Assembly: GCA_902761655.1 (NCBI GenBank)
Contig: CACWLD010000001.1
Span: 38,732 to 102,731 of the forward strand
Length of the DNA stretch: 64,000 nt
Origin: an uncultured Bacteroidia bacterium
GTDB taxonomy: Bacteria; Bacteroidota; Bacteroidia; Bacteroidales; UBA932
Reading direction: 5' to 3'
This document shows positions 15,919 through 48,457 of the stretch, in pieces; the stretch's first letter is position 1, and every line of letters begins with the position of its first letter. The position numbers were made by a program, and so were the translations under genes. Below the pieces are notes generated by a model. The model did no database searches. It worked only from the letters and a program-made list of their open reading frames with translations, and was not told where the DNA came from.

Positions 15919-21571
<5,653 letters not shown>

Positions 21572-21579
<8 letters not shown>

Positions 21580-22660: not shown

Positions 22661-22662
22661 CG

Positions 22663-23862
22663 TTATAGTGATTTAACCAGTTCAGTCAACTTTTCCATAG
22701 CTCGCAGGCTTTTCTCCTTAGTGTTGAAGGCTGTCACCCTGAAATAGCCCTCTCCTCCCTGACCGAAACCTGCTCCGGGGGTTACAACCACTCCCGTTTT
22801 GTTAAGCAGGAGGTCGAAGAAGTCCCAGGAAGGCATCCCGGCGGGAGTCCGAGCCCATATATAAGGCGAATTCTCTCCACCCGTCGGTTCCAGTCCCGCT
22901 TTCTGGATGCTGTCCCTGATGACGGAGGCGGTGTCCAGGTAGCCGTCTATGACGGCTTTTACCTGCACCTTTCCATCGGGGCTGTAAACAGCCTCCGCAC
23001 CTCTCTGGGAGATGTATGAAGCGCCGTTGAACTTGCAGCTCTGCCTCCTGTCCCACAAATGGTTGAGGGATATTTCCTTCCCTTGGGCGGACGGCGCGGT
23101 CAGTTTTTCGGGAACAACTGTGAACGCGCATCGGACGCCCGTGAAGCCTGCCGTCTTGGAGAAACTCCTGAACTCGATGGCACATTGCTTTGCCCCCTCA
23201 ATTTCGTAGATGGAGTGGGGGATAAGGGGGTTACGGATGAAGGCTTCGTAAGCGGCATCGTAAAAGATTATGCTGTGATTGGCCAGGGCGTAATCTACCC
23301 AGGCCTTCAGTTTATCCTTTGTTATTACCGCCCCGGTGGGATTGTTGGGGTAGCAGAGGTATATGATGTCCAGTTTCCGGCCAGGAATGTCCCCTGTGAA
23401 ACCGTTTCCCGCATTGCAGGGTATAAGCACTATTTCCCGCCCTGCCATTGTGTTGGTGTCCAGGTAAACAGGGTATACGGGATCAGTTATTCCTATTACG
23501 TTTTCTGCAGAGAAAATATCCCCAATGTTGCCGGTATCGCTCTTGGCTCCGTCGCTGACGAATACCTCCGATGCCTTGATTCCAAGGCCGGCGTAATCGT
23601 TGTCCACTATTGCCTGGCGAAGGAAATCATAACCAGGCTCCGGGCCGTAACCGCGGAATGTCTCGCTGTGGCCGCATTCTTCCACGGCCTTGTGCATTGC
23701 CTGCACTACGGCCGGGACAAGTGGCTGCGTGACATCCCCTATACCCATCCTGATTATCTCTGCCCCGGGATTCTTCCCGCTGAAGGCGGAAACCCTTGAG
23801 GCAACCTCGGCAAAGAGGTACCTCTGTTCCAGTTTCAGGTAATTGTCGTTTATGAGGCTCAT
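22663..23862 (-). CDS. dapL: LL-diaminopimelate aminotransferase
   Basis: 399 residues. [35 protein letters not shown], and the pyridoxal-phosphate lysine in [16 protein letters not shown] (about 235) are characteristic of DapL. It converts tetrahydrodipicolinate directly to LL-diaminopimelate with glutamate as amino donor, bypassing the acylated intermediates of the DapCDE route. It overlaps dapF by 4 bases (ATGA), and dapF acts on its product. Glutamate use may explain its place next to gltBD. Confidence 0.95.
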
Positions 23863-24674
23863 ACTTCCACGCTTCCTTCGAATACCGTTACGGCCGGACC
23901 GGTCATTACAACCTTCTGGCTGGCCTTGTCACAATCTATGGTCAGGCTTCCGCCGTCCATTACAATTGTGCAGGGGCCCTGGACCAGGCCGCGCTCCACG
24001 GCGGCTGCGGCTGTGGCGCAGGCGCCCGTGCCGCAGGCCATCGTTATCCCGCTGCCTCTCTCCCAGACCCTCATACGGATGACCCCGGGGGAAACCACCT
24101 TGGCGAATTCCACATTGGTCTTGTCCGGGAATGCAGGATCGCATTCTATCACAGGCCCGTATTTGTACAGGTCAAGCGTGTCCGCATCGTCCTGGAATGT
24201 AACATAGTGGGGATTTCCCATACTTACACCCATCCCTTGGAATATGCGGCTGTCTACGGTCATTTCATCCGGAGCGTCCGTCAAGGAATAGCAGCCCATT
24301 TCCACGGCCACGCTGGCTACCATACCATCTTCACCAATGTTCAGGTGCAGCATCTTTATGCCCGAAAGGGTTTCCAGCGCAATGTCCGTCTTTGAAGTAA
24401 GATGCTTGTCATACACATATTTTCCCACGCACCGCGCTCCGTTGCCGCACATCAGGCCTTCGGATCCGTCGGCGTTGAAGATACGCATACTGAAGTCAGC
24501 CACCTTGCTGGTGCCTATCAATATGATTCCGTCCCCGCCAATGCCAAAGTGCCTGTCACTGAGCCTTACTGAGAGTGCAGATGGATTGGCGATTGGGAAA
24601 CGGCCTGCATCTATATAGATGTAGTCGTTTCCCAGCCCTTCCATCTTGGTAAAAAACAAAGTTTTCTGTCCCAT
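23859..24674 (-). CDS. dapF: Diaminopimelate epimerase
   Basis: 271 residues from the ATG at 24674 ([22 protein letters not shown]); an upstream start at 24707 would overlap gltD by 32 bases and is less likely. The two catalytic cysteines are in [14 protein letters not shown] (about 73) and [13 protein letters not shown] (about 214). It interconverts LL- and meso-diaminopimelate for peptidoglycan and lysine. The gene begins 1 base beyond the gltD stop and overlaps dapL by 4 bases. Confidence 0.95.
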
Positions 24675-24675
24675 C

Positions 24676-26022
24676 TTACTTTCTATTGAGATAACTGTCA
24701 ACTTCAATGGCCGTCTGCCGTCCGCTTGCGATGGCCCTTACCACCAGGCTGGCGCCTGATTTGGCATCGCCGCATAGGAAGACATTGGGGCCGAAGGCAG
24801 GATGCTCCGGTTTCAGGAATCCCATTGCCAGAAGCACCATATCGCACTCTATGACTTCTTTTTCTCCCGTCTTCTCCATCCTGGGGCGTCCCCCGTCAGG
24901 GGAAGGCACCCATTCCACGCGTTCCACTTCCACTCCGCAGACGTTGCCTTTGCCATCGTCCAGGAACTTGTTGGAAGCCAGGCTCCAGCGCCTGGTGCAG
25001 CCTTCCTCGTGACTGGTGGAGGTGCGCAGCACCTGAGGCCAGTACGGCCACGGCGTGGCCGGGTTGTACCCCTCCGGTGGCTGCGGCATTATCTCTATCT
25101 GGGTTACATCAAGTGATTCCTGCCTGTGGCAGGTGCCAATGCAGTCGCTTCCGGTGTCTCCGCCACCAATGACAAGCACTTTCCTGCCTTTGGCACTGAC
25201 AGTCTCTTCTGGGGAGAAGGCCTCTCCCTCAAGGATCCTGTTCTGCTGGGAAAGCATCTCCAGGGCAAAGTGGATGCCCTTGAGATCCCGTCCCGGAATG
25301 TCCAGGTTCCTGGCCTGGGGAGTGCCTGTGGCAATTACGTAAGCATCATAACCTTCAGGGAGTTTTTCAAGGTCTATCTCGGTTCCGCATATAAAGTTAA
25401 TACCTTCTTGCGTCATATGGTCAACCCTGCGGTTAATTATGTACTTGTCCAGCTTGAAATTTGGGATTCCGTAGCGGACAAGGCCGCCCGGTTTGCCCAT
25501 TCTGTCAAATACGGTGACCTCGTAACCCAGGCAGTTCAGGCGCGTGGCCGCGGACAAGCCCGCCGGCCCGGCGCCAATCACCGCCACCTTCTTCCCGTTC
25601 CTTGCATACTGCCGGGGTTTGATATAGCCTTCAGCAAACGCCTTTTCTATTACCGAGCACTCGTCTTCCCGTATGGTTACGGGAGCGTCTATGCAGTGGT
25701 TCAGCACACAACTCTTTTCACAGAGGGCAGGGCATACCCTGCCGGTGAACTCCGGGAAATCGTTGGTGGCCGTAAGCAGCTTGAACGCCAGTTCCCACTC
25801 TCCGTGATAGATTGCGTCCTGCCATTCGGGGGCCTTGTTGCCCAAAGGGCAGGCCCAGTGGCAGAATGGCACTCCGCAATCCATACAGCGGGATGCCTGC
25901 AGGCGGCGTTCGCCCTCGTTGAGGAACTGTTCCACTTCGCTGAAGTCGCAGATCCTCTCATATATAGGTCTGTGTCCCGCTTCCTGGCGGGGTACAGTCA
26001 AAAATGCCTTAGGATTTCCCAT
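24676..26022 (-). CDS. gltD: Glutamate synthase small subunit
   Basis: 448 residues from the ATG at 26022 (MGNPKAFLTVPRQEAG); a TTG six bases upstream lies across the gltB stop. The N-terminal iron-sulphur region has CMDCGVPFCHWACPLGN and CPALCEKSCVLN, followed by the FAD site VAVIGAGPAGLSAA (about 147) and a pyridine-nucleotide site VLVIGGGDTGSDC. It feeds electrons from NAD(P)H to GltB. It starts 2 bases after the gltB stop; the pair forms GOGAT. Confidence 0.96.
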   Translation of the reverse strand: MGNPKAFLTVPRQEAGHRPIYERICDFSEVEQFLNEGERRLQASRCMDCGVPFCHWACPLGNKAPEWQDAIYHGEWELAFKLLTATNDFPEFTGRVCPALCEKSCVLNHCIDAPVTIREDECSVIEKAFAEGYIKPRQYARNGKKVAVIGAGPAGLSAATRLNCLGYEVTVFDRMGKPGGLVRYGIPNFKLDKYIINRRVDHMTQEGINFICGTEIDLEKLPEGYDAYVIATGTPQARNLDIPGRDLKGIHFALEMLSQQNRILEGEAFSPEETVSAKGRKVLVIGGGDTGSDCIGTCHRQESLDVTQIEIMPQPPEGYNPATPWPYWPQVLRTSTSHEEGCTRRWSLASNKFLDDGKGNVCGVEVERVEWVPSPDGGRPRMEKTGEKEVIECDMVLLAMGFLKPEHPAFGPNVFLCGDAKSGASLVVRAIASGRQTAIEVDSYLNRK

Positions 26023-26024
26023 TG

Positions 26025-29000
26025 TCAATAATCTCTCTGAACGTTGTCAATCTTTTCCTGAATCTTGCGCATAGCCTCTTCCTGAAGAACCTTCTTGTAC
26101 TCGATAGGAGTAACCTGGATGAATTCTTCCTGATAACGGCTCCAGTCCGCGAGCATCTCAGCCGCCAGTTTGGATCCTGTACGCTGGTAGTGCTCCTCGA
26201 TAAGGGCCTTGAGCTCATCCCTGCGGGCCTTCTCCTCTATCAGACTCAGTTCTATCATATCCATATTGCAGTAGTAGTCAAAATCGTGGTCCTTGTCCCA
26301 GACATACGCCAGGCCTCCGGACATACCGGCTGCAAAGTTCCTTCCTGTCTTTCCCAGGACAACCACGCGTCCTCCGGTCATATACTCGCAGCAGTGGTCT
26401 GAAGTGCCTTCCACGACTGCAATAGCCCCGGAATTGCGCACGGCAAACCTCTCTCCGGCCTTTCCGCAGATGAACACCTTGCCGCTGGTGGCTCCGTAAA
26501 GGATGGTGTTGCCTGCGATGGCATTCTCAGAAGCCTTGAAAACCGAACGCGCGGGCGGATATACGGAGATTATGCCTCCAGAAAGGCCTTTGCCCATATA
26601 GTCATTGGCCTCACCCTCCAGCCTGAACTCCACGCCCTTTGCCAGGAATGAGCCGAAGCTCTGGCCTGCGGAGCCCTTGAACGTTATGTTCAAGGTGCCG
26701 TCCGGCAGGCCCTGAGCGCCATACTCTTCCGTAATGTGTCCGGACAGCATAGCTCCCACCGTGCGGTTTGTGTTCACTATGTCGTAAGTGAGTGAAATTG
26801 GCTGCCTGCTGTCCACCGCATACTTTGTGGCGGCAATGAGCTCGCGGTCAAGGACGTTGAAGATATTGTGCTTCTGGTCCCTCTGCTTGCGGATGGCTGC
26901 ACTCCCTTCAACCCTGTGCAGCAGTTTGCCAAAGTCAAGGCCGGAAGTCTTCTCGTCAAGCTTGCTTCCGTCTATCTCAATGAGGTCGCTCCTTCCAATT
27001 ATGTCTTCGAACTTGCGGAATCCCATCTGCGCCAGGTACTCGCGTACTTCGCGCGCCAGGAAAGTGTAGTAGTTCACAAGGTAATCGGCCTTGCCCCTGA
27101 AACGCTTCCTTAACTCAGGATCCTGGGTGGCAACGCCCATAGGACAGTTGTTGGAGTGGCACTTGCGCATAAGCACGCATCCCAGCACAATCAGCTGCGC
27201 AGTGCCGAAGCCAAATTCTCCAGCGCCAAGCAGCGCCATTGAAACAATGTCCTTTCCGGTCTTCAGCTGGCCGTCCGTCTGGAGCTCCACTGATCCGCGC
27301 AGATTGTTCATTATAAGCGTCTGCTGCGTCTCCGCAAGTCCAATCTCCGGCGATATTCCCGCATATCTGATTGAGGATATTGGCGATGCGCCCGTTCCTC
27401 CTTCAGCGCCTGAAATAATAATCAGGTCCGCCTTAGCCTTGGCTACGCCGGCGGCAATTGTGCCCACGCCGCTCTCCGCTACCAGTTTCACGCTGATCTT
27501 GGCCTTGGGATTGACATTCTTGAGGTCGAATATCAGCTGCGCCAGGTCTTCTATGGAGTAGATGTCGTGGTGCGGCGGCGGTGATATGAGGGAAATCCCC
27601 GGGATTGAATGCCTTGTCCTGGCAATAATGCCGTTCACCTTGTATCCGGGCAGCTGTCCGCCTTCGCCGGGCTTTGCGCCTTGGGCCACCTTGATCTGGA
27701 TCTCCTCTGCGTTGACCAGATACTCCGTGGTAACTCCAAAGCGGCCGGATGCCACCTGTTTAACCTTGCTGTTCAACGAAACGCCGTCCTTGGTTCCCTT
27801 GAAACGGGCCTCGTCCTCGCCGCCCTCGCCGGTGTTGCTCCTGCTTCCCAGCTTGTTGAGTGCCAGCGCAATGGTCTCGTGAGCCTCTTCGCTCAAGGCT
27901 CCGAACGACATTGCGCCGCCCACGAACCTTTTCACGATGCTCTCCTCCGGCTCCACCTCTTCAAGCGGAATGGGATTTTGCTTGAAAGTGAAGAAGTCCC
28001 TCAGGAACAGAGGTTCCTTGCGGGAATCTACCAAGGAGGAGAACTCCTTGAATTTGGAGTAGCTGCCTTCGCGCGTCGCAATCTGCAGCGTGGCGATGGC
28101 TTCCGGAGTCCAGGCGTGGCGTATTCCGTCCTTGCGGAAAGCATATTGCCCAACCATCGGAAGGATGTCGCTTCCTTCCTCATTGAAGGCCTGCGAGTGC
28201 AGGCGGATGGCGTCCTTTGCAATTGTTCCCAGGCCGATTCCTTCAATAGTTGAGGAAGCGGTGCCGAAGTACTTGGAAAGGAGCTCGCTGCTGAGGCCTA
28301 TCGCCTCGAAAATCTTGGCCCCGCGGTAAGAGCGTATTGTGCTGATTCCCATCTTGCTGAGGATTTTCAGCAGGCCCTTGTCCATTGCCTTGATGTAGTT
28401 GTGCCTTGCAGTGACTTCGTCCATCTGGAGAGCGCCTTTTTCAACCTGGTCCTTGATGACGGCGAAAGCCATATAAGGATTCACTCCGCTTGCACCGTAT
28501 CCCAGCAGAAGGGCGGCGTGCATTACCTCGCGGATCTCACCGCTTTCCACTATCAGCGCGGTCTGGACCCTTTTCTTTATTGAAACCAGATAATGGTGGA
28601 TGGCGCTCACGGCCAGAAGGGAAGGGATGGCCGCGTGGTCCGCGTCAAGCCCGCGGTCCGTGAGGATTATATAGTTGATGCCTTTGTCAACTGAGCGCTC
28701 TGCCTGTTGACAGAGAGACTCCAGGGCATCGCTGAGCCCCTTTTCTCCCTTTGAAGGGTCAAAGAGCATAGGGAGTTTCTCCGTGTTGAAACCCTTGTAG
28801 CGGATGTTGCACAAAGTATCAAGTTCAGTGTTGGTGATGATAGGCTGGGGGAGGCGTACCATCTTGCAATGGGAACTGTCCGGAGTAAGGATGTTCATTC
28901 CCACGGCTCCAATGTATTCCGTCAGGGACATTACAAGTTCCTCCCTGATAGGGTCTATAGGAGGGTTGGTCACCTGTGCGAACTGCTGCCTGAAGTAGTT

Positions 29001-30497
29001 GAACAGCAGCTGGGGCCTGTCGGACAGAACGGCAAGCTGGGTGTCATTACCCATTGAGGATATTGGTTCCTGGGCGTTGGAGCACATAGGAAGGATAACT
29101 TTCTGGATGTCCTCCCGGGTGAAGTCAAAGCCGCGCAGCTTGCGCGCATAGTCTTCCACTTCGTAGTCAGCCTTGCGCCCGCTGCGGAGCTTTGCCAGCT
29201 CCGTCCGGCCCTCGGCAAGCCATTTCCCGTAGTCCTGCCCCTCTGAGAGGCTCTTCTTGATGTCCTCGTCTGCTATGATCTCTCCGGTTTCGGTGTCCAC
29301 CAGCATTATCTTGCCAGGCTGAAGGCTGCCTTTGGTGCGCACTATCTGCGGGTCAATCTTGAGGCATCCCGTCTCGGAGGCGATGAGCATAAGGCCGTCT
29401 TCCGTGACAAGGTACCTGGAAGGACGCAGGCCGTTGCGGTCCAGCATACCTCCGGCATACCTTCCGTCAGTGAAAAGCATTGCAGCAGGGCCGTCCCACG
29501 GCTCCATCAGGATGGAGTGGTACTCGTAGAAGTCCTTGAGGCTCTGGCTGATAGGGTTCTTTTCGTTGAAGGATTCCGGGACCATCATTGCCATAGCGTG
29601 AGGCAGGCTCATACCGGACCTCACGAAGAACTCCAGCGCGTTGTCAAAGGAAGCGCTGTCGCTCATATCCGGCTGGATGACGGGGGAGAAGTCCTTGACA
29701 TCTCCCAGCGCCGGGGAACTGAGCACGCTCTCGCGCGCTTCCATCCAGGAGCGGTTGGAGCGGATGGTGTTTATCTCTCCGTTGTGAGCCAGCATCCTGA
29801 AGGGCTGGGCGAGGGACCAGGTTGGGAAAGTGTTGGTGCTGAAACGTGAGTGCACCATTGCCAGGGCGCTGGTGAAGAACGGGCTTCCCAGGTCAGGGTA
29901 GTACTCCCTGAGCTGGTTGGAAGTGACCATTCCCTTATACACGATGACGCGGTTTGACAGGGATACAATATAGAAATCCCTGTCACTGATCCTTCTCTCG
30001 ATATGCTTGCGCAGCAGGTACAGCTGGGTCTCGAACTTGCTGACCTCCTGTGCACCCGTTATGAATATCTGGACTATCTTGGGCTCCGTCTTCTTAGAGG
30101 CTGCTCCCAGTACATTTGAGTCTACAGGTACTTCCCTGATATGGAATAGGTTAAGCCCCGCCTTTTCAGTCTCCTGACGGATTATGTCCATATAGCCGGC
30201 GGCCAGTTCCGTATCTTTGGGCAGGAATACAAGGCCGGTGCCGTATTTCAGCCTCTCCGGAACAGGGATGCCCTGGAGCAGGATGAACTCGTGCGGAATC
30301 TGAAGAAGGATTCCGGCGCCGTCTCCGCTCTTGTTGTCGGCGGCCTCGGCCCCGCGGTGCTTCATATTTTCAAGCACCGTCAGGGCGTTGTCCACTAGTG
30401 AATGGGATTTGTCACCCTTGAGGTTTATGAGCATTCCAATGCCGCAGGCATCGTGCTCATATTCCCTGGAGTACAATCCTTGGTTATCTTGTCGCAT
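26025..30497 (-). CDS. gltB: Glutamate synthase large subunit
   Basis: 1490 residues. A 17-residue propeptide precedes the class II glutaminase nucleophile in HDACGIGMLINL (Cys18). The FMN barrel region holds GGEDEARF and the [3Fe-4S] motif CVLMRKCHSNNCPMG (about 1105-1120), and the C-terminal beta-helix (GXXG repeats such as GGIISVYPP, GGRVVVLGKTGRNFAAGMSGG) is intact. It makes two glutamates from glutamine and 2-oxoglutarate. It lies 11 bases after glnN, so the GS-GOGAT pathway is co-transcribed. Confidence 0.97.
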   Translation of the reverse strand: MRQDNQGLYSREYEHDACGIGMLINLKGDKSHSLVDNALTVLENMKHRGAEAADNKSGDGAGILLQIPHEFILLQGIPVPERLKYGTGLVFLPKDTELAAGYMDIIRQETEKAGLNLFHIREVPVDSNVLGAASKKTEPKIVQIFITGAQEVSKFETQLYLLRKHIERRISDRDFYIVSLSNRVIVYKGMVTSNQLREYYPDLGSPFFTSALAMVHSRFSTNTFPTWSLAQPFRMLAHNGEINTIRSNRSWMEARESVLSSPALGDVKDFSPVIQPDMSDSASFDNALEFFVRSGMSLPHAMAMMVPESFNEKNPISQSLKDFYEYHSILMEPWDGPAAMLFTDGRYAGGMLDRNGLRPSRYLVTEDGLMLIASETGCLKIDPQIVRTKGSLQPGKIMLVDTETGEIIADEDIKKSLSEGQDYGKWLAEGRTELAKLRSGRKADYEVEDYARKLRGFDFTREDIQKVILPMCSNAQEPISSMGNDTQLAVLSDRPQLLFNYFRQQFAQVTNPPIDPIREELVMSLTEYIGAVGMNILTPDSSHCKMVRLPQPIITNTELDTLCNIRYKGFNTEKLPMLFDPSKGEKGLSDALESLCQQAERSVDKGINYIILTDRGLDADHAAIPSLLAVSAIHHYLVSIKKRVQTALIVESGEIREVMHAALLLGYGASGVNPYMAFAVIKDQVEKGALQMDEVTARHNYIKAMDKGLLKILSKMGISTIRSYRGAKIFEAIGLSSELLSKYFGTASSTIEGIGLGTIAKDAIRLHSQAFNEEGSDILPMVGQYAFRKDGIRHAWTPEAIATLQIATREGSYSKFKEFSSLVDSRKEPLFLRDFFTFKQNPIPLEEVEPEESIVKRFVGGAMSFGALSEEAHETIALALNKLGSRSNTGEGGEDEARFKGTKDGVSLNSKVKQVASGRFGVTTEYLVNAEEIQIKVAQGAKPGEGGQLPGYKVNGIIARTRHSIPGISLISPPPHHDIYSIEDLAQLIFDLKNVNPKAKISVKLVAESGVGTIAAGVAKAKADLIIISGAEGGTGASPISSIRYAGISPEIGLAETQQTLIMNNLRGSVELQTDGQLKTGKDIVSMALLGAGEFGFGTAQLIVLGCVLMRKCHSNNCPMGVATQDPELRKRFRGKADYLVNYYTFLAREVREYLAQMGFRKFEDIIGRSDLIEIDGSKLDEKTSGLDFGKLLHRVEGSAAIRKQRDQKHNIFNVLDRELIAATKYAVDSRQPISLTYDIVNTNRTVGAMLSGHITEEYGAQGLPDGTLNITFKGSAGQSFGSFLAKGVEFRLEGEANDYMGKGLSGGIISVYPPARSVFKASENAIAGNTILYGATSGKVFICGKAGERFAVRNSGAIAVVEGTSDHCCEYMTGGRVVVLGKTGRNFAAGMSGGLAYVWDKDHDFDYYCNMDMIELSLIEEKARRDELKALIEEHYQRTGSKLAAEMLADWSRYQEEFIQVTPIEYKKVLQEEAMRKIQEKIDNVQRDY

Positions 30498-30508
30498 AAG
30501 CGGGCCGT

Positions 30509-32695
30509 TTAGTTGATGAACAGGATTTCACGATACTTTGGAAGCGGCCAGGTGCTGTTGTCGCAGATCTCTTCCAACTGGTCTATGAACTTGCGGATCC
30601 CGAACAGGGAATCGGCAATATCGTGGTATGCCAGGGCTTTCTCGTATTCGCACTGGATCTCGTTGGCTTTGGCCCTTGCCTGTACCATTGCATCTACGCT
30701 TGTGTGGATTTCCTTGATAAGGAATGAGATATCCTTTATAAGCCCTATCTGGGTCGCTGCAAGCGTCTGGTAATCGTTGGGGAAGGACTCCTTGCAAAGG
30801 TCAATGTTCTGCAGAAGCCTTGTCTGGTAGTCGATAGCGGCGGGAATGACGTGGTTGATTGCCATCCTGCCCATTACCCTGGCCTCAATCTGGACCTTCT
30901 TGCTGTAGGTCTCCCATTTAACCTCGTTGCGGGCCTCCAGTTCTTTCTCTGAATAGATTCCCAGGCTTGTGAAAAGCTTTATTGCATCCGGGGAGGTATA
31001 AGCCTTGAACATCTTTGGAACGTTTGTCTCGGTGTCCAGGCCTCGCTTTGCAGCCTCGGCCTTCCACTCGTCTGTGTAGCCGTTTCCGTCAAAGCATACT
31101 ACACCTATGATGGACTTGATAATTGGCTTGAGGCAGTCCATAAAGGCAATGCTCATCTCCTTTCCGGCGGCCATTTCCTTGTCTACGGCGACCTTGAATG
31201 CTTTCAGCTGTTCCGCCACAGCGGCGTTGAGCGCAGTCATTGCGCCTGCGCAGTTCGCGCTTGATCCAACGGCCCTGAATTCAAAGCGGTTTCCGGTGAA
31301 TGCGAATGGGGAAGTCCTGTTCCTGTCAGTGTTGTCCACGAATATCTCCGGGATTTCAACTATTCCCACGGACTGGCCTTTCTTTCCGGCAATCTCAATT
31401 GGAGTGTCGGAGGGAACGGTGAGAAGCTTGTGAAGCACATCGGTCATAGTCTTGCCAAGGAAGGCGGATACTATTGCAGGCGGAGCCTCGTTAGCACCAA
31501 GCCTGTGGGCGTTGGTGGCTGAGGCGATGCTGGCCTTCATAAGGGCGTTGTGCTTCTGCACTGCGGCCAGTACGTTTACAAAGAATGTGACGAACTGCAG
31601 GTTGCCCTTGGCATCCTTTCCAGGTGCAAGGAGCAGTGTTCCGGTATCAGTTCCCAGTGACCAGTTGTTGTGCTTTCCGGAACCGTTGATACCCTCGAAA
31701 GGCTTCTCGTGGAAGAGTACAACAAAGCCGTGCTTGCGGGCAATGCTGTTCATCACGTTCATTATTATCTGGTTCTGGTCGTTGGAGAGGTTGGTTTCAC
31801 CATAGATTGGCGCCAGCTCGAACTGGTTGGGGGCAACCTCGTTGTGGCGGGTCTTCAGGGGGATTCCCAGTTTGTATCCGGCAATCTCAATGTCGCGCAT
31901 AAAAGCCGCAACCCTAGAAGGTATGGCTCCAAAATAGTGGTCTTCCAGCTGCTGGTTCTTTGATGAAGCGTGGCCCATCAGGGTGCGTCCGGTGAGCATC
32001 AGGTCCGGCCTTGCGGCGTACAGGTCTTCGTCCACAAGGAAATATTCCTGCTCCCATCCAAGATAAGAGTAGACCTTCTTGACGTTGGGGTCGAACATCT
32101 GGCAGATGGGAACCGCAGCGTCACTCACTGCCTTCAGCGCCTTCTTCAAAGGAGCCTTGTAGTCCAAAGCCTCTCCTGTGTAAGAGATGAAGACGGTGGG
32201 GATACAGAGCGTGTCGTCCTGGATGAAGACAGGGGAGGTAGGGTCCCAGGCGGTGTAGCCACGGGCCTCGAAGGTGGCCCTGATGCCACCGCTTGGGAAT
32301 GACGATGCGTCAGGCTCCTGCTGAACAAGGGAGGTGCCGTCAAAGGTCTCTATCATTCCGCCTTTCCCGTCGTAGTCAAGGAAGGAGTCGTGTTTCTCCG
32401 CAGTACCTTCCGTCAAAGGCTGGAACCAGTGGGTGATGTGGGTCACTCCGTGCTCCATAGCCCAGGTCTTGATGCCCGCAGCCACTTTGTCTGCAGTGGA
32501 GCGGTCCAGTGTCTCTCCTTTGTCAATGCAATTGACAAGGTCCGTGAAAGTCTTGGCGTCCAGATACTTGCGCATCTTTTCGCGGTTGAACACCAGTTCT
32601 CCGAAATAGTCGGAGGTCTTCATAGCCGGAATCTCTACTGTAGCGGCCCTCTTCTTGAAGGCGTCTTGAACTACGTCAAATCTTGGATTGTTCAT
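30509..32695 (-). CDS. glnN: Glutamine synthetase type III
   Basis: 728 residues, the size of the large GSIII enzymes typical of Bacteroidota, not the 450-residue GlnA. Marker stretches are YLGWEQEYFLVDEDLYAARPD (about 213-233), KTRHNEVAPNQFELAPIYGETN, FHEKPFEGINGSGKHNNWSL and NRTSPFAFTGNRFEFRAVGSS. It makes glutamine from glutamate, ammonium and ATP. It lies 28 bases after asnB and 11 before gltB. No adenylylation site is expected in this family, so control by transcription, such as the upstream attenuator, is plausible. Confidence 0.97.
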   Translation of the reverse strand: MNNPRFDVVQDAFKKRAATVEIPAMKTSDYFGELVFNREKMRKYLDAKTFTDLVNCIDKGETLDRSTADKVAAGIKTWAMEHGVTHITHWFQPLTEGTAEKHDSFLDYDGKGGMIETFDGTSLVQQEPDASSFPSGGIRATFEARGYTAWDPTSPVFIQDDTLCIPTVFISYTGEALDYKAPLKKALKAVSDAAVPICQMFDPNVKKVYSYLGWEQEYFLVDEDLYAARPDLMLTGRTLMGHASSKNQQLEDHYFGAIPSRVAAFMRDIEIAGYKLGIPLKTRHNEVAPNQFELAPIYGETNLSNDQNQIIMNVMNSIARKHGFVVLFHEKPFEGINGSGKHNNWSLGTDTGTLLLAPGKDAKGNLQFVTFFVNVLAAVQKHNALMKASIASATNAHRLGANEAPPAIVSAFLGKTMTDVLHKLLTVPSDTPIEIAGKKGQSVGIVEIPEIFVDNTDRNRTSPFAFTGNRFEFRAVGSSANCAGAMTALNAAVAEQLKAFKVAVDKEMAAGKEMSIAFMDCLKPIIKSIIGVVCFDGNGYTDEWKAEAAKRGLDTETNVPKMFKAYTSPDAIKLFTSLGIYSEKELEARNEVKWETYSKKVQIEARVMGRMAINHVIPAAIDYQTRLLQNIDLCKESFPNDYQTLAATQIGLIKDISFLIKEIHTSVDAMVQARAKANEIQCEYEKALAYHDIADSLFGIRKFIDQLEEICDNSTWPLPKYREILFIN

Positions 32696-32723
32696 AATAC
32701 TCTTCTTTATGACTAACTAACTT

Positions 32724-34388
32724 TTATAATGCTTGGTTGTGAATGTCTTTTACGGCGCGGCCGCTGGGGTCGTTGACGCCGTTGAAGGAAGGATCCCAGC
32801 GGAGCGCCTCCGCGGTGGAGCAGGCCACGCTGGGTACGCTGGGCACGCTCAGGGCGGCGCTGTTGCTGGGGAATAGTTCGCTGAAGATGGAGCGGTAATA
32901 GTATTCTTCCTTGTTCATCGGGGTGTGGATGGGGAAGCGCTCAGCCGCGTGGGCCATCTGCTTGTCGCTTACAAGTTCTGAAGTCATCTGCTTGAGGCTG
33001 TCAATCCAGCCGTAGCCAACTCCGTCGCTGAACTGCTCCTTCTGCCTCCATACTATGCTGTATGGGAGAAGGTCTGTGAAGGCCTCGCGGACAACCCTTT
33101 TCTCGATCTCTTTGCCCGGGCACATCTTCACCTCAGGCTTAAGGGACATTGCCACGTCCAGGAACTCCTTGTCCAGGAAAGGCACGCGTCCCTCCACGCC
33201 CCAGGCGGCCAGGGACTTGTTGGCGCGCAGGCAGTCGTACATATGCAGCTTGCTGAGCTTGCGGACCGTCTCTTCGTGGAATGCCCTTCCGTCAGGGGCC
33301 TTGTGGAAATAGAGGTATCCGCCGAAGACCTCGTCCGCTCCCTCGCCGCTCAGGACCATCTTTATGCCCATACTCTTTATGTACCTTGCCAGAAGGTACA
33401 TAGGGGTGCTTGCGCGAACTGTTGTAACATCGTAGGTTTCAATGTGGTAGATGACGTCGCGGAGGGCGTCCAGACCTTCCTGCACGGTGTAGTTCACTTC
33501 GTGATGGACCGTGCCTATGAAGTCCGCCACCACACGCGCCTTCTCCAGGTCCGGAGATCCTTTAAGGCCTATTGCAAAGGAATGCAGGCGCGGCCACCAG
33601 GCTTCGCTCCTGTCCTGGGTCTCGACCCTGTTCCTGGAATACAGTGCGGCTATCGCCGATATGACGGAACTGTCCAGGCCGCCTGAAAGCAGTACGCCGT
33701 AAGGCACGTCGCTCATAAGCTGACGTTTCACGGCAGCTTCGAGCGCGGGCCTGAGGCTCCTGGGGCTAACCGTGCTTTTCTTCACGGCGTCGTAATCGAA
33801 CCAGTCGCGCTTCCACCAGCGGCGGATCTCGCCGTCCCTGCTGTCCAGCAGATGTCCCGGAGGGAACGGCTCGTACCGCTCGCACATTCCCTCCAGAGCC
33901 TTCAGCTCGCTGGCAACGTAGGTGGTGCCGTCGTCATCGTATCCTATATAAAGGGGGATTACTCCGATGGGGTCGCGGGCAATCAGGAATCTGTCCTGGG
34001 CCTGGTCATAAAGGGCAAAGGCAAAGATGCCGCTCAGGTCCTCCAGGAAATCGATTCCCTTCTGTTTGTAAAGGGCCAGGATCACTTCGCAGTCAGAACC
34101 GGTCTGGAAATCGTATTTCCCGGCTAGGTGGTCACGGATACCCTGGTGATTGTAAATCTCTCCGTTCACGGCCAGGACACAGGTCCTGTCAGGAGAGAAT
34201 AGAGGCTGCCCTCCGGAAAAAGGATCCACAATGGCCAGCCTCTCGTGGGCCAGCGTGCAATGCTCGCTGCAATAGACTCCGCTCCAGTCCGGTCCGCGGT
34301 GCCTGATACGGGCAGACATCTGCAATGCCTTTTCGCGAGTCTCCCGCTGGGAGCACTTGCTGTCAAAAATGCCAATAAAACCACACAT
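32724..34388 (-). CDS. asnB: Asparagine synthetase B (glutamine-hydrolysing)
   Basis: 554 residues. The class II glutaminase nucleophile is Cys2 (MCGFIGIFD), with RIRHRGPDWSG and AVNGEIYNHQ following; the synthetase domain has the pyrophosphate loop GVLLSGGLDSSV (about 228-240) and LSGEGADEVFGGYLYFH. It makes asparagine from aspartate, ATP and glutamine. It is the first structural gene of a nine-gene minus-strand run. The ATG lies 6 bases beyond the U tract of a terminator hairpin that is itself preceded by an Asn/Gln-rich leader ORF. Confidence 0.97.
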   Translation of the reverse strand: MCGFIGIFDSKCSQRETREKALQMSARIRHRGPDWSGVYCSEHCTLAHERLAIVDPFSGGQPLFSPDRTCVLAVNGEIYNHQGIRDHLAGKYDFQTGSDCEVILALYKQKGIDFLEDLSGIFAFALYDQAQDRFLIARDPIGVIPLYIGYDDDGTTYVASELKALEGMCERYEPFPPGHLLDSRDGEIRRWWKRDWFDYDAVKKSTVSPRSLRPALEAAVKRQLMSDVPYGVLLSGGLDSSVISAIAALYSRNRVETQDRSEAWWPRLHSFAIGLKGSPDLEKARVVADFIGTVHHEVNYTVQEGLDALRDVIYHIETYDVTTVRASTPMYLLARYIKSMGIKMVLSGEGADEVFGGYLYFHKAPDGRAFHEETVRKLSKLHMYDCLRANKSLAAWGVEGRVPFLDKEFLDVAMSLKPEVKMCPGKEIEKRVVREAFTDLLPYSIVWRQKEQFSDGVGYGWIDSLKQMTSELVSDKQMAHAAERFPIHTPMNKEEYYYRSIFSELFPSNSAALSVPSVPSVACSTAEALRWDPSFNGVNDPSGRAVKDIHNQAL

Positions 34389-34394
34389 AGCCTT

Positions 34395-34433
34395 AAAAAG
34401 TTAAAAGGGCTGATTCCCTGTTGGAACCAGCCC
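34395..34433 (-). terminator. Attenuator hairpin between leader peptide and asnB
   Basis: On the minus strand GGGCTG pairs with CAGCCC, continued after one mismatch by a 4-bp GGAA helix on the inner side, with a 5-base loop, then TTTTAACTTTTT. This is a good intrinsic terminator placed between the Asn/Gln leader stop (34474) and the asnB ATG (34388). Its 5' arm contains GGCTGGT, which is complementary (one G-U) to ACCAGTC just before the leader stop codon, giving a candidate antiterminator. Confidence 0.85.
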
Positions 34434-34473: not shown

Positions 34474-34569
34474 CTACGACTGGTGGATAGAACACAACAA
34501 CTCAAGAACCTGATTCTGATTCTGGTTCTTGCCATTGTTGCGCTGATTGTTCCAATAAAATCCAGTCAT
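34474..34569 (-). CDS. Asn/Gln-rich leader peptide of the asnB operon (31 codons)
   Basis: Short ORF beginning MTGFYW, then NNQRNNGKNQNQNQ, then VLELLCSIHQS and TAG. Fourteen consecutive residues hold seven Asn and four Gln. It lies 85 bases upstream of asnB, follows a promoter-like sequence and precedes a terminator hairpin. The codon run also sits inside a perfect 8-bp hairpin (CAAGAACC / GGTTCTTG, 34503-34530). Known leader peptides for trp, his, ilv and others have the same design: ribosome stalling at codons for the scarce amino acid prevents termination. The inference is that low charged tRNA-Asn or tRNA-Gln turns the operon on. A second leader with the same features upstream of glnK supports it. 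Confidence 0.8.
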   Translation of the reverse strand: MTGFYWNNQRNNGKNQNQNQVLELLCSIHQS

Positions 34570-44572: not shown

Positions 44573-45964
44573 TTATATTTCTGAGCCGTAAAGGGCTGTG
44601 GGATAATTACCGGTGAAGCAGGCGGTGCAGAGGGATGTCCGGCAGGACGCCTTTAGCAGCGCCTGCGCGGATAGATAGTGGAGGGAGTCTGCGCCTATGA
44701 ATTCGCAGATTTCCTCCACGTTGTGGCTGGCGCCGATGAGCTGCTCGCTTGTCCCGGTGTCAATTCCGTAGAAGCAAGGCCAGGCATATTTAGGACTGGC
44801 GATGAGCATATGCACTTCTTTTGCTCCTGCGTCGCGCAGAAGGCGGACAATTTGCCTGGAGGTGGTTCCGCGGACTATGGAATCGTCGATCAGGGCGATG
44901 GATTTGCCTTCGACTACGCTGCGGATGGGGGACATCTTCATCCGGACGCCCAGGTCGCGCATTGACTGGGCTGGTTGGATGAAGGTCCTGGCCACGTAGA
45001 TGTTCTTCAGCAGGCCCCGCTCCAGCGGGATGCGGGAGGCCTCGGAGTAACCCATAGCGGCGCTGAGGCTGGAGTCGGGGACACCAACCACGATGTCCGC
45101 GGGGACGGGGTGCTCCTCAAAGAGGAGCCTGCCAGTCCGCTTGCGGAACTCGTGGACGTTACACCCTTCTATGTCGCTGTCAGGGCGTGCGAAGTAGATA
45201 TACTCCATCGCGCACATATACCTTCCGGAAAGATGCGAATGGCGATAGCACTTCAGCCCGTCAGGGCCTATGGATACCAGTTCGCCTGGTTCTATATCGC
45301 GCAGGAACTCCGCATTAAGGGCGTTCAGGGCGCAGGTCTCGCTGGCTACAACGTAGCCGCCTTCCAACCGCCCGATGGAGAGGGGCCGGAAGCCATACTT
45401 GTCGCGGCAGGCATACAGTACTCCGTCTGCCAGAATCACTGTCGAGAACGCGCCGTCAAGTTGGTTGGCGGCAGATATTATGCTTCCGGGCCAATCGTCC
45501 GTATTAGCCCTTATTCCTATCAGATGGGCGAACAGTTCGCTGTCAGAGGTCGACTGGAACATATGTCCTTGATCCTCTAGCCTTGACTTGATGATGTCGG
45601 CGTTTACAATGTTTCCGTTATGTGCAAATGCGAATCTGCCAGCCTTGCAGGAGATGCAGAACGGCTGTATGTTCTCCCTTCCGCCCACGGCGGTGGTGGG
45701 GTAGCGGACGTGGCCTATGCAAGTGTCGCCCGGGAGCTGGGAGAGGGAATCGTCAGGGAAGACGTCTTTGACAAGGCCGGCGCCCTTGCGGATACGCAGT
45801 CTGCGGTCAGGACCGCAGATGGCGATTCCGCAGGCCTGCTGGCCGCGGTGCTGGATGGCCTCCAGCGCCACGAAAGCGTGGCGGGAGGCGCCATCCACCC
45901 CGTAGATTCCAACTACGCCGCACTCCTCGTGCAACTCATCAAAGCTATCTTTAAGCAGGATCAT
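44573..45964 (-). CDS. purF: Amidophosphoribosyltransferase
   Basis: 463 residues. A 14-residue propeptide precedes the class II glutaminase nucleophile in HEECGVVGIYG (Cys15), as in the iron-sulphur PurF type; the C-terminal LCTACFTGNYP supplies the CxxC cluster ligands. The PRPP site is IALIDDSIVRGTTSRQIV (about 350-368). It performs the first step of purine synthesis using glutamine. It is last in the glnK-amtB-porin-purF run (6 bases after the porin gene), an unusual but informative place that ties it to nitrogen control. Confidence 0.95.
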   Translation of the reverse strand: MILLKDSFDELHEECGVVGIYGVDGASRHAFVALEAIQHRGQQACGIAICGPDRRLRIRKGAGLVKDVFPDDSLSQLPGDTCIGHVRYPTTAVGGRENIQPFCISCKAGRFAFAHNGNIVNADIIKSRLEDQGHMFQSTSDSELFAHLIGIRANTDDWPGSIISAANQLDGAFSTVILADGVLYACRDKYGFRPLSIGRLEGGYVVASETCALNALNAEFLRDIEPGELVSIGPDGLKCYRHSHLSGRYMCAMEYIYFARPDSDIEGCNVHEFRKRTGRLLFEEHPVPADIVVGVPDSSLSAAMGYSEASRIPLERGLLKNIYVARTFIQPAQSMRDLGVRMKMSPIRSVVEGKSIALIDDSIVRGTTSRQIVRLLRDAGAKEVHMLIASPKYAWPCFYGIDTGTSEQLIGASHNVEEICEFIGADSLHYLSAQALLKASCRTSLCTACFTGNYPTALYGSEI

Positions 45965-45970
45965 TCCTTA

Positions 45971-46633
45971 TTATGGTTCCAGAGTTATACCAAACACAAG
46001 ATAAGCATTTTTTGTGTATGGATTTGCCGCCAACTGAGCAAAAACAGGAATTGAGAATGAATCGGTAACCTGAATGTCCTTTGAGGCTGTAAGTGACAGA
46101 TTAATGAAGGCAAAGCGGTCAACTCCATAGAAGTCAGTGGCAAATGGGACAATGCCTGCCGTTGCAGCACATTCTACACCGCCTAGCGAGAAAGGAACAC
46201 TTGCTTCCAGGTAACTGCTGTATGCCAGGCTGCCTTTATCGTTCAGGCTGTCGTCCCCTGCAAAGTTTGTAAACCACTGAAGCGAACCGAACCCGAAATC
46301 ATAGCCTATATTGGCTTCGAATACCTTGCTTGCAATTTCCGGGAACCAATAGTCCGTTACTCCTATGTTGAAACCACCTGCCTCATAAGCCAGTGTGAAG
46401 TCCAGTTCCCGGGTGTCCATTGGATTGGACAGGCCCTCCGATCCCCAGGCAGAGAAGCTCAGACCCCTATAGGAAAATTCAAGGGAAGGCTGAACCGACA
46501 CCCCTCCAAGGTCCTGACCGCGCCATACATAGTGGCTGACAATATCAGTTCCAAGAGAAGATTCAAATCTGTCCTGTGCCCCTGCCGCAATCATTCCGAT
46601 TAGGAACAGGGAAGTGATAAACAGCGCTTTCAT
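45971..46633 (-). CDS. TorF-like outer-membrane porin family protein
   Basis: 220 residues with a signal peptide (MKALFITSLFLIGMIAAGAQ). RFESSLGTDIVSHYVWRGQDLGGVSVQPSLEF is typical of the TorF/gcw_chp family, and alternating hydrophobic strands ending in a membrane-targeting terminus (NAYLVFGITLEP) indicate a small beta-barrel. Its gene lies 2 bases after amtB and 6 before purF. The context suggests a role in outer-membrane passage of ammonium or another nitrogen source; substrate not shown. Confidence 0.78.
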   Translation of the reverse strand: MKALFITSLFLIGMIAAGAQDRFESSLGTDIVSHYVWRGQDLGGVSVQPSLEFSYRGLSFSAWGSEGLSNPMDTRELDFTLAYEAGGFNIGVTDYWFPEIASKVFEANIGYDFGFGSLQWFTNFAGDDSLNDKGSLAYSSYLEASVPFSLGGVECAATAGIVPFATDFYGVDRFAFINLSLTASKDIQVTDSFSIPVFAQLAANPYTKNAYLVFGITLEP

Positions 46634-46635
46634 AA

Positions 46636-47853
46636 TCAGTTGTAGCAGCTTTCTCCGTGTTCGTAAACGTCAAGGCCTTCGTCTTCTACGCGTGCCTCCA
46701 CGCGCAGGCCGGCGAATTTCTTTATACCGAAGAAGAGCAGGAATCCGCAAACCGCAGCCCAGAGGTCGATTACCAGGATGCCAAGGCACTGTATGCCAAA
46801 GAAATGCAGTCCGCCGCCGTAGAAGAGGCCGCCGTCTGTTGCCAGGAGCCCTGTCATCAGCGTTCCAAGTATTCCGCATACACCGTGTACTGAAGAAGCT
46901 CCTACAGGGTCATCAATGTGAAGCTTATGGTCAAAGAACTCAATTGCAAAGACCAGAACCGTGCCGCAGATCAAGCCAATGATTACCGCTCCCCAAGGAG
47001 ATACCAAATCGCAACCTGCCGTTATGCCCACCAGGCCTGCAAGCACGCCGTTGAGCATCATTGAGAGAGATGGCTTACCGTATTTGATCCAGGTAAGGAA
47101 CAGAGTGGCGGTTCCACCGGCAGCGGCCGCCAGGTTGGTTGTCAGGAAAACGTGCGATATGGCCAGGCGGTTAACTTCTCCGCTTGCGGCCAGCTGGCTT
47201 CCCGGGTTGAATCCGAACCATCCAAGCCAGAGGATGAATACTCCAAGAGCAGCCAGGGCCAGGCTGTGGCCGGGAATGGCGCGGCTCTTTCCGTCCTTTC
47301 CGTATTTGCCGCGACGCGGGCCAAGTGCGATGGCTCCTATCAAGGCAAGCACGCCGCCTACACTGTGGACGATTGCACTTCCTGCAAAATCGTGGAAGCC
47401 CAGCTCCGCCAGCCAGCCGCCTCCCCAGGTCCAATGGCCCTCTACGGGGTAAATGATTAGAGATATGAAGGCGCTGTAAATCATATACATAGAGAACTTT
47501 GTCCTCTCTGCCATGGCACCGCTTACAATGGTTGCCGAAGTGGCGCAGAATACTGTCTGGAAAATCAGGAATCCTTCCACCGGCAGATTTCCTTTATAGA
47601 AAGAGAGGTCTCCCCAGTTGGGCGCGCCAATAAAACCGGCGCCATCACTTCCGAACATAAAGCCGAAGCCGACAAAGAAAAACAGCAGGGATCCCAGCAT
47701 AAAGTCCACAAAGTTCTTCATCAGGATGTTCACGGTGTTCTTGCCCTGGGTGAATCCAGCCTCGCACAGTGCGAATCCCGGTTGCATCCAGAAAACCAAC
47801 ATTGCTGCAAGCAGCATCCATACAGTATCCAGAGATATAGCTAAATCGTTCAT
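46636..47853 (-). CDS. amtB: Ammonium transporter
   Basis: 405 residues with about eleven membrane segments. The twin pore histidines are in FAGSAIVHSVGGVLAL and DPVGASSVHGVCGILG, and the gate region CATSATIVSGAMAERTKF is conserved. It imports ammonium and is normally closed by GlnK binding. It lies 21 bases after glnK, and the same operon encodes a porin and purF. The C-terminal tail (EARVEDEGLDVYEHGESCYN) holds the usual tail region. Confidence 0.96.
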   Translation of the reverse strand: MNDLAISLDTVWMLLAAMLVFWMQPGFALCEAGFTQGKNTVNILMKNFVDFMLGSLLFFFVGFGFMFGSDGAGFIGAPNWGDLSFYKGNLPVEGFLIFQTVFCATSATIVSGAMAERTKFSMYMIYSAFISLIIYPVEGHWTWGGGWLAELGFHDFAGSAIVHSVGGVLALIGAIALGPRRGKYGKDGKSRAIPGHSLALAALGVFILWLGWFGFNPGSQLAASGEVNRLAISHVFLTTNLAAAAGGTATLFLTWIKYGKPSLSMMLNGVLAGLVGITAGCDLVSPWGAVIIGLICGTVLVFAIEFFDHKLHIDDPVGASSVHGVCGILGTLMTGLLATDGGLFYGGGLHFFGIQCLGILVIDLWAAVCGFLLFFGIKKFAGLRVEARVEDEGLDVYEHGESCYN

Positions 47854-47874: not shown

Positions 47875-48222
47875 TTATTTCCTATCCCTAAGCACGGTGT
47901 CACCGTGTTCCCCTGTCCTTATGGACCAGGTGTCTATTACGTCGCTGACAAAGATGCGTCCGTCTCCAACCTCGCCCGTATGGGCCTCGCGCAGAAGGAC
48001 CTTGATTGTAGGTTCCACAAAGATGTCACGGCATATGATGGTCAGGGCAATGCGCTCGATGACATCGGTGGAGTACTGGACACCACGGTAAACCCTTTCC
48101 TGTCGGCTTTGGCCGATGCCGTGTACGCTGTGATACTCAAACCAGTTGATGTCTGACTGGAGCAGGGCCTCCTTCACATCCTCGAACCTTGTCCTGCGGA
48201 TGATGGCTTCAATCCTTTTCAT
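47875..48222 (-). CDS. glnK: PII nitrogen regulatory protein
   Basis: 115 residues from the ATG at 48222 (MKRIEAIIRRTRFEDVKEAL). The T loop runs GIGQSRQERVYRGVQYSTDVIER with the conserved Tyr-Arg-Gly, and the C-terminal signature is HTGEVGDGRIFVSDV and IRTGEHGDTVL. It senses 2-oxoglutarate and nucleotides and gates AmtB. First structural gene of its operon; the ATG is 45 bases beyond the U tract of an attenuator hairpin that follows an Asn/Gln-rich leader ORF. A longer start (48267) would begin inside the intergenic region and is unlikely. Confidence 0.95.
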   Translation of the reverse strand: MKRIEAIIRRTRFEDVKEALLQSDINWFEYHSVHGIGQSRQERVYRGVQYSTDVIERIALTIICRDIFVEPTIKVLLREAHTGEVGDGRIFVSDVIDTWSIRTGEHGDTVLRDRK

Positions 48223-48267: not shown

Positions 48268-48308
48268 AAAAAATGAAGACCGGCTCTTTTTGAGAACCGG
48301 TCTTCATT
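48268..48308 (-). terminator. Attenuator hairpin between leader peptide and glnK
   Basis: Minus strand AATGAAGACCGG / CCGGTCTTCATT, a 12-bp stem extended by CTC / GAG, followed by TTTTTTG. It lies between the leader stop (48325) and glnK. The 5' arm AAGACCGGTT can instead pair with GGCCG plus GTCTT near the leader stop (10 pairs with two G-U and a bulge), a candidate antiterminator. It could also serve as the nadE terminator if readthrough occurs. Confidence 0.85.
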
Positions 48309-48324
48309 TATATCTGACAAAAGA

Positions 48325-48408
48325 CTACCCTATCCGGCCGGCAAGACAGGATTTAACGTTATTATTCTGCTGATTGAGAATACCAAAAATATGGACGTTT
48401 GCAGTCAT
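48325..48408 (-). CDS. Asn/Gln-rich leader peptide of the glnK operon (27 codons)
   Basis: Short ORF MTANVHIFGI, then LNQQNNNV, then KSCLAGRIG and TAG. Codons 12-17 are Asn-Gln-Gln-Asn-Asn-Asn without interruption. It has a good promoter 20 bases upstream and a terminator 17 bases after its stop, before glnK. The layout matches the leader upstream of asnB although the two sequences are otherwise unrelated, which argues that the Asn/Gln run is under selection. Inferred function: ribosome stalling at uncharged Asn or Gln tRNA lets transcription continue into glnK-amtB-porin-purF. Confidence 0.8.
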   Translation of the reverse strand: MTANVHIFGILNQQNNNVKSCLAGRIG

Positions 48409-48427
48409 TTTGTGTTGTTTTCTTGTG

Positions 48428-48457
48428 CTAATATAGGATAAGAAAACGGAAAAACAA
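48428..48457 (-). promoter_or_regulatory. Candidate promoter of the glnK leader/operon
   Basis: Minus-strand TTG (complement of 48455-48457), 19 bases, then TATATTAG (48428-48435), one mismatch from TAnnTTTG. Transcription would start about 10-13 bases before the leader ATG at 48408. It resembles the asnB leader promoter. Confidence 0.55.

Follow-up and report, generated by a model that had tools for sequence, protein, structure and literature searches.

A predicted asparagine/glutamine-codon attenuator with a putative pseudoknot antiterminator before the glnK-amtB operon of an uncultured Bacteroidales bacterium

Introduction

What does a 27-codon open reading frame (ORF) rich in asparagine and glutamine codons do directly before the genes of ammonium uptake? 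The question is raised by a stretch of 64,000 nucleotides (nt), here called the window, from an uncultured Bacteroidia bacterium of the Bacteroidales lineage UBA932 (assembly GCA_902761655.1; 2.0 Mb, 63 contigs, 93.7% complete), in which such an ORF lies between nadE and glnK, at the head of a glnK-amtB-porin-purF operon. To our knowledge, nitrogen sensing in Bacteroidales is poorly understood. A first-pass annotation of the window had read the ORF as a leader-peptide attenuator, and our analysis of the window and of related loci leads to the same answer: attenuation by Asn/Gln codons is, on comparative grounds, very likely what the ORF serves. A ribosome-mediated attenuator that would read charged Asn- and Gln-tRNA, with a pseudoknot formed by the loop of a hairpin (P2), very likely controls glnK-amtB-porin-purF, and the loop-to-arm pseudoknot itself, as modelled, is probably the antiterminator.

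Results and Discussion

The leader before glnK

From 48494 to 48222 on the minus strand, the nadE-glnK interval holds a promoter, the 27-codon ORF and a strong terminator, followed by glnK (Table 1). The ORF, the promoter, the terminator, their conservation, the gene association, P2 and the complementarity of its loop to the terminator are all seen in the sequence, and the ORF, its run of Asn/Gln codons (N/Q run), the promoter and the terminator lie where the first-pass annotation had placed them. The promoter agrees at 8 of 9 positions with the Bacteroides consensus, used for scoring as given in the excerpt of PMC7366714, and a score of at least 8 is reached by 33 of the 51 leaders that were compared, the corresponding fraction in shuffled sequence being 0.03. 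A sigma-70 promoter was rejected, since the sigma-70 scan of the window gives none at this site. The fold of leader plus terminator has an energy of -51.8 kcal/mol (z = -5.85; equalled by 0 of 200 shuffles), and a simple terminator scan of the window called P2 (48352-48327) and not the main terminator. In the minimum free energy fold, positions 48413-48401 around the leader start codon pair with 48328-48317 at and after the leader stop (minus strand, 12 pairs); one relative (L282 in our numbering of loci) may, as judged by eye, retain part of this pairing through a compensatory change.

Association with nitrogen-assimilation operons

The window and the fetched loci, picked around nitrogen genes through homologues of glnK, AmtB and AsnB (together 5.24 Mb of strand-bases), were rescanned for N/Q-rich short ORFs (at least 5 of 8 residues) that have a hairpin of -12 or lower no more than 80 nt away. 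This returned 38 rows (28 distinct), and 37 of them (27 distinct) precede nitrogen-assimilation operons, of the types glnK, porin-glnK(-amtB), asnB(-glnA), amtB-asnB and glnA-gltB-gltD; the sole exception (L036, 13156) has no such nitrogen gene there, and the reversed-sequence control gave 0 rows. For the rows of L221 and L222 the gene context was taken from a separate reading of those loci, and L146 and L148 (both with a poor T run behind the terminator stem), L025 and L114 do not pass the hairpin filter and were added by eye. In the loci read, nearly all leaders stand in front of nitrogen-assimilation operons; on this comparative evidence an Asn/Gln leader attenuator upstream of glnK-amtB is strongly supported, and a chance origin is rejected by this location together with the empty control. 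Since the loci were chosen around nitrogen genes, the specificity holds within them and gives no rate for elsewhere. Some of the leaders before glnA start with GTG.

In the genome of the window itself a six-codon pattern has 99 matches, and pure runs of Asn/Gln codons are found in the asnB and glnK leaders, twice in one Gln-rich frame of 240 amino acids and once in a frame of 40 amino acids lying antisense to a longer one. Apart from N and Q, the peptides of different leader types have little in common; N and Q make up 619 of 1791 residues in the 51 leaders (codons CAG 264, AAT 240, AAC 99, CAA 16). That set leaves out duplicates, near-duplicates and later finds (L033, which equals L284; L061, which equals L293; L308, L310, L321 and L323), as well as L322, an N/Q ORF without a hairpin. 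An amide-codon short ORF, an intrinsic terminator before the first structural gene and recurrence upstream of matching operons are all present here.

Conservation of the short ORF in close relatives had been named in the first-pass annotation as one point on which its reading would stand or fall, and the ORF is conserved: near-identical glnK leaders occur in L281-L283, the same leader type in L284-L290 and L293, and among another 24 glnK loci of the genus, 11 have a leader immediately before glnK. Each of the remaining 13 has gltD, pyrG or purF upstream in the same orientation, ending 62-450 nt before glnK, so that glnK may be internal to a longer operon there; an upstream pyrG is compatible with a leader, as five of the 11 leader-bearing loci also have one. 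A leader before glnK, porin or asnB was found in 16 of 29 more same-genus loci, the remainder being 12 with same-strand matches to purF, pyrG, gltD or carB upstream and no leader within the stretch read, and L322. Where same-genus, same-strand clusters running from glnA to glnK were read up to glnA, all seven (L143, L145-L148, L154, L155) have a leader before glnA. The design was found in two families of the order, namely f1 (the window's genus g1 and genus g15) and, in two genomes, f18; the gltBD-glnK clusters of the genomes G315 of f18 (L243) and G474 of f74 (L242) have no leader. The closest named AmtB (93% identity) belongs to a Bacteroidales metagenome-assembled genome from water-buffalo rumen (L033).

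P2 and the loop-to-arm pairing

As antiterminator, the first-pass annotation had proposed that GGCCG and the post-stop GTCTT pair with AAGACCGGTT in the 5' arm of the terminator. Complementarity to the arm is indeed found again in close relatives, as CCGGYC:GACCGG, though within the loop of a hairpin; GTCTT, present in the window, L281, L283, L287 and L288, is absent in six of ten aligned relatives (L282, L284, L285, L289, L290 and L293). An initial duplex test of the segment near the stop against the terminator 5' arm gave a mean z of -1.6 in 22 leaders (Fisher 1.3e-9), and it was the reading of the leader sequences that gave the idea that the arm-complementary segment sits in the loop of a hairpin. 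In a joint search, where stem and loop:arm pairing were scored together and the shuffles were given the same freedom (39 leaders scored, 22 representatives), 17 of the 22 representatives had p < 0.05 (Fisher 1e-15) and the window glnK leader had p = 0.005, the minimum possible with 200 shuffles; no hairpin was found in L026 and L047.

The stems were also tested on 36 representatives with the core fixed by eye. Their mean energy was -7.41, compared with -3.58 (standard deviation 0.36) in shuffled sequence, and P2 of the window glnK leader had p = 0.007. Often the loop measures 8 nt and ends in CCRGYC, which can pair with the 5' arm of the terminator; a loop of exactly 8 nt whose core directly adjoins the 3' strand was seen in 15 of the 36, where the null had a mean of 1.04 and a maximum of 5 over 300 shuffle sets. 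In the 30 stem-bearing representatives, P2 and the arm core are 17-43 nt apart. An H-type pseudoknot would have just such a shape, with a loop 1 of two bases, a second helix of six pairs, a long loop 3 and nothing unpaired at the junction; the loop geometry and the statistics fit it.

In 11 aligned close leaders, P2 and terminator are paired in 97.0% of cells (slid controls 35-52%), and five pairs show double changes, a number reached by 0 of 500 shuffles; the number of pair types was not above shuffles (185/500). For P2 alone the paired share is 96.0% of cells, and one of its pairs shows a double change between U-A and C-G; the terminator has changes on both sides at 4 of 12 pairs. The loop:arm pairing in this group consists of five invariant pairs and one that is U-A in five leaders and C.A in six, the window among the six, a pattern that is neutral as evidence on the pairing within the group. 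Among 42 distinct core:arm combinations, position 3 covaries, being A-U in 25, G-C in 11, G-U in 6 and never A-C. Own arms beat permuted arms over the six-base core (237/252 vs 228.3, p = 0.00005, and likewise p = 0.00005 with Watson-Crick pairs only) and over 10 nt with Watson-Crick pairs only (p = 0.0022), figures that have to be read with the caution that the cores were selected by eye with complementarity in mind and that the permutation ignores relatedness.

The position of these parts relative to the ribosome was considered as well. From the end of the N/Q run to P2 there are 0-31 nt (median 9.5), which means that a ribosome halted over a large part of the run ought not to cover P2. Of the 30 stem-bearing representatives, 19 have a P2 that touches or crosses the stop codon, and 43 of 51 leaders have their core inside the footprint of a ribosome at the stop, assumed to reach from -18 to +12 around it.

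A number of results have to be set against the proposed attenuator and its pseudoknot. With respect to distribution, 73 of 80 named loci, Prevotella and Bacteroides included, have no leader within 500 nt upstream of glnK (measured from amtB where no glnK precedes it), and L041 and L052 have weaker N/Q ORFs with no hairpin after them. None of the 11 loci read in other f1 genera (L334-L344) has a leader, and none stands at 13 of the 18 operon starts listed (L151 and L160, two each; L163, L166, L174, L175, L177; L178, two; L277 and L278), the remaining five being glnA in L145-L148 and L155. With respect to the pairing, the plain duplex test gave p = 0.585 for the window glnK leader and 0.301 for the asnB leader, the stem-only test gave p < 0.05 in just 11 of 36 representatives (Fisher 8.6e-10), and six of the 36 lack a stem of -3 kcal/mol or better around the core. 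The window glnK core makes five of six pairs with the arm, with one C.A mismatch (six of six in the relatives L285, L287-L289 and L293), and all six pairs are present in only 36 of 51 leaders. Loop:arm covariation is lacking in the close group, where the score was matched by 114 of 500 shuffles, and over 10 nt with G-U pairs own arms are no better than permuted ones (p = 0.12). Finally, the stop lies 28-37 nt beyond the core in L114, L155 and L315, and the terminator of L315 begins immediately at the stop and would be blocked by a ribosome there, which is hard to fit. Taken over all leaders, the statistics and the geometry speak strongly for the pseudoknot, and the computation yields a predicted antiterminator that excludes the terminator and draws on bases which a ribosome at the stop would cover; for the window's own copy the evidence is mixed.

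Alternative explanations

A classical linear antiterminator would do without the pseudoknot: segment 2 and its neighbours would form a plain long-range helix with the terminator 5' arm, and P2 would be a pause hairpin or incidental. In trp-type attenuators a pause hairpin is commonly found at about this position, the best run complementary to the arm is at least 6 bp in 47 of 51 leaders (from 45 nt before the stop to the terminator), and complementarity of 7-9 bp without a good P2 is seen in the porin-type leaders L311, L327 and L330 and in L307, a glnK leader. This helix nevertheless appears unlikely to us, though worth keeping in mind, because the 8-nt loop with its core flush to the 3' strand occurs far above chance, and because the strands of P2 lie outside the complementarity, yet remain paired in the close leaders and include the double-changed pair.

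The two other alternatives leave the codons without a role. A metabolite riboswitch or protein-binding RNA, dependent for example on PII or glutamine, with the ORF incidental, would suit a compact structured element before glutamine genes, and the LEU element before leuA of Actinobacteria, which also has a leader and a pseudoknot, has been interpreted in this way, its authors considering classical attenuation unlikely and preferring a binding protein (PMC1262725, in the excerpt). This is very improbable here, as no Rfam match at gathering score was found in the window besides three tRNAs and the leader types share little but N/Q codons, loop core and terminator arm. The same search gave no T-box riboswitch, and a known Rfam leader or glutamine riboswitch was rejected because none reaches gathering, the best leader family being Thr_leader (RF00506) with 30.2 bits vs 55. 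That the terminator is constitutive and partial and sets the dosage of the operon might be argued from the low complexity of N/Q-rich peptides, but we give this very little credence, because in the loci read N/Q run and downstream terminator are confined to nitrogen operons and the codons are varied, with no simple repeat.

Table 1. Position of the leader parts, of the genes behind them and of other leaders; positions are those of the window unless a locus is named.
Feature	Position	Strand	Details
Bacteroides-type promoter	48428..48457	minus	-33 TTG 48457..48455, 19-nt spacer, -7 TATATTAG 48435..48428
glnK leader ORF, 27 codons	48408..48325	minus	MTANVHIFGILNQQNNNVKSCLAGRIG, stop TAG 48327..48325
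Control codons, uninterrupted Asn/Gln run	48375..48358	minus	AAT CAG CAG AAT AAT AAC (NQQNNN)
Hairpin P2	48352..48327	minus	AUCCUGUCU(UGCCGGCC)GGAUAGGGU, covers ORF end and first base of the stop codon
P2 loop core (segment 2)	48341..48336	minus	CCGGCC, complementary to arm core GACCGG
Intrinsic terminator hairpin	48309..48271	minus	AAATGAAGACCGGTTCTCAAAAAGAGCCGGTCTTCATTT, -25.6 kcal/mol, T run 48273..48268
Terminator 5' arm core	48302..48297	minus	GACCGG
glnK (PII protein), first structural gene	47875..48222	minus	PF00543, 66.2 bits
amtB, ammonium transporter	46636..47853	minus	TIGR00836, 437 bits; PF00909
"Porin" gene, Gcw_chp family protein	45971..46633	minus	PF09694, 29.2 bits, cut-off 24
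purF, amidophosphoribosyltransferase (glutamine-using)	44573..45964	minus	TIGR01134, 467 bits
asnB leader ORF, before asnB-glnA-gltB-gltD	34474..34569	minus	MTGFYWNNQRNNGKNQNQNQVLELLCSIHQS, then stop
asnB-leader P2	34466..34497	minus	UUGUGUUCUA(UCCACCAGUCG)UAGGGGCACAG
asnB-leader loop core	34483..34478	minus	CCAGTC, complementary to terminator arm GGCTGG 34432..34427, 6/6 core pairs
Trp leader (Bacteroides acidifaciens)	L068:10744-10806		others in loci L345-L357 and L359-L366

The genes behind the leader and the companion asnB leader

The gene order of the operon and the identities of glnK, amtB and purF agree with the first-pass annotation; its "porin" matches only Pfam Gcw_chp, and an NCBIfam profile search of that protein (45971..46633) gave no match. 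A second Asn/Gln leader stands before asnB in the same window, and its P2 had p = 0.010 in the joint test of stem and loop:arm pairing and p = 0.223 in the stem-only test. What the two leaders have in common is only the N/Q codons, the layout and the loop-core/terminator-arm motif, so recent duplication was rejected; the annotation was right that they are independent in sequence and that chance and recent duplication are poor explanations. Behind the asnB leader, asnB-glnA-gltB-gltD-dapF-dapL-carA-carB-pyrG, many of them glutamine-using, are co-oriented in 16734-34388 (minus strand) behind this single leader; the car, dap and pyr names were assigned by reading the sequences. In relatives the order of these genes is reshuffled with glnK, amtB and purF.

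Leaders of other amino acids

In all 22 loci processed out of 31 given, a leader with Trp codons and a terminator stands immediately upstream of trpB, which makes attenuators of this kind common in the order. In one of them (L068), a hairpin loop at the stop contains CGACAG, which can pair with CTGTCG of the terminator 5' arm, similar to the Asn/Gln design. A general scan for leaders of other amino acids returned mostly noise, plus one Trp leader. In L277 (15756, minus), a leader MSSRNFIFFDFDYICAYATTAGSYARRLSAIIPGRHQRFK with a terminator precedes dapF-dapL-glnA-gltBD-asnB, and it is Phe/Tyr-rich instead of Asn/Gln-rich.

What is sensed and how

The control codons are Asn and Gln mixed, with codon choice varying inside the run. 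Both amides are also found in the f18 leader before porin-glnK-amtB, and the same family has, in L249 (11847) and L250 (15274), a leader MTMNKNLNNGNNLNLNPNRNSERNCRNNNRNRSAGLTSRAD, rich in Asn but lacking Gln, in front of a second amtB with asnB behind it, which possibly reflects separate sensing of Asn. The window genome has glnS and asnS above profile cut-offs (glutaminyl- and asparaginyl-tRNA synthetase), and a gatB search gave no match; as the assembly is incomplete, the absence of GatB is likely, not certain. With both synthetases found and GatB not, tRNA charging in this genome should depend directly on free Gln and Asn.

With plentiful Gln and Asn, the ribosome would pass the N/Q codons and reach the stop codon, where its footprint would lie over segment 2 and P2, the terminator would form and transcription would end before glnK. 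If either amide is scarce, the ribosome would stall in the N/Q run, P2 could fold behind RNA polymerase, and its loop would pair with the terminator 5' arm as an H-type pseudoknot; this would delay the terminator and let the ammonium-uptake genes be transcribed. From the sequence we infer the translation of the leader, the stalling, the pseudoknot in vivo, and the sign and size of the regulation. To generalize, we lean towards a Bacteroidales attenuator class in which the position of the ribosome would gate an H-type pseudoknot antiterminator (8-nt loop NNCCRGYC to arm GRYYGG), and which would run, via Asn/Gln codons, a nitrogen regulon of ammonium uptake, PII, glutamine synthetase/glutamate synthase (GS/GOGAT) and asparagine synthetase.

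Relation to known systems

The trp, his, thr, leu and ilv attenuators likewise have a short ORF rich in codons of the product amino acid, a stop near the antiterminator segment and an intrinsic terminator before the first gene. In contrast to them, here two amides would govern ammonium transport and PII besides amide synthesis, the antiterminator is a predicted loop-to-arm pseudoknot, and the promoter is of the Bacteroidales kind. It is known that leader translation in ColIb-P9 repY/repZ, and a ligand in the preQ1-I riboswitch, govern an H-type pseudoknot that uses a hairpin loop, although for repZ the control acts on translation and involves an antisense RNA, and preQ1-I responds to its ligand. 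The LEU element, according to the excerpt of PMC1262725, also combines a leader ORF carrying a codon run with a conserved pseudoknot, whereas here the partner in the pseudoknot is the terminator arm.

Within the phylum, "strong clues" of attenuation by leader peptides ahead of operons for amino-acid biosynthesis were reported for Flavobacterium psychrophilum (PMC9723704); its main text never mentions asparagine and has glutamine once, as glutamine cyclotransferase, and the excerpt has no pseudoknot. The excerpt of the Bacteroides thetaiotaomicron map (PMC7366714) describes small ORFs reminiscent of leader peptides together with the sigma-ABfr consensus, and the main text of PMC2965389 on premature terminators does not mention Bacteroidetes or Bacteroides. 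Among the matches listed from open-access PMC literature, which leaves subscription papers outside its scope, there was no Asn/Gln leader attenuator and no leader-controlled pseudoknot antiterminator. For Prevotella ruminicola 23, glnK-amtB-asnB expression changed 38- to 69-fold with ammonium, the excerpted text being inconsistent on the direction (PMC5552732). The Prevotella loci read have no such leader before glnK, so the design would not explain P. ruminicola itself.

If the proposed attenuator is true, these Bacteroidales would have a specific sensor made from the translation machinery, with the two amides of nitrogen assimilation as its input. It would place ammonium transport, PII, GS/GOGAT and the synthesis of asparagine in one regulon via leaders of unrelated sequence, and the leaders would offer a natural test case for the idea that a ribosome gates a pseudoknot and in this way controls a terminator.
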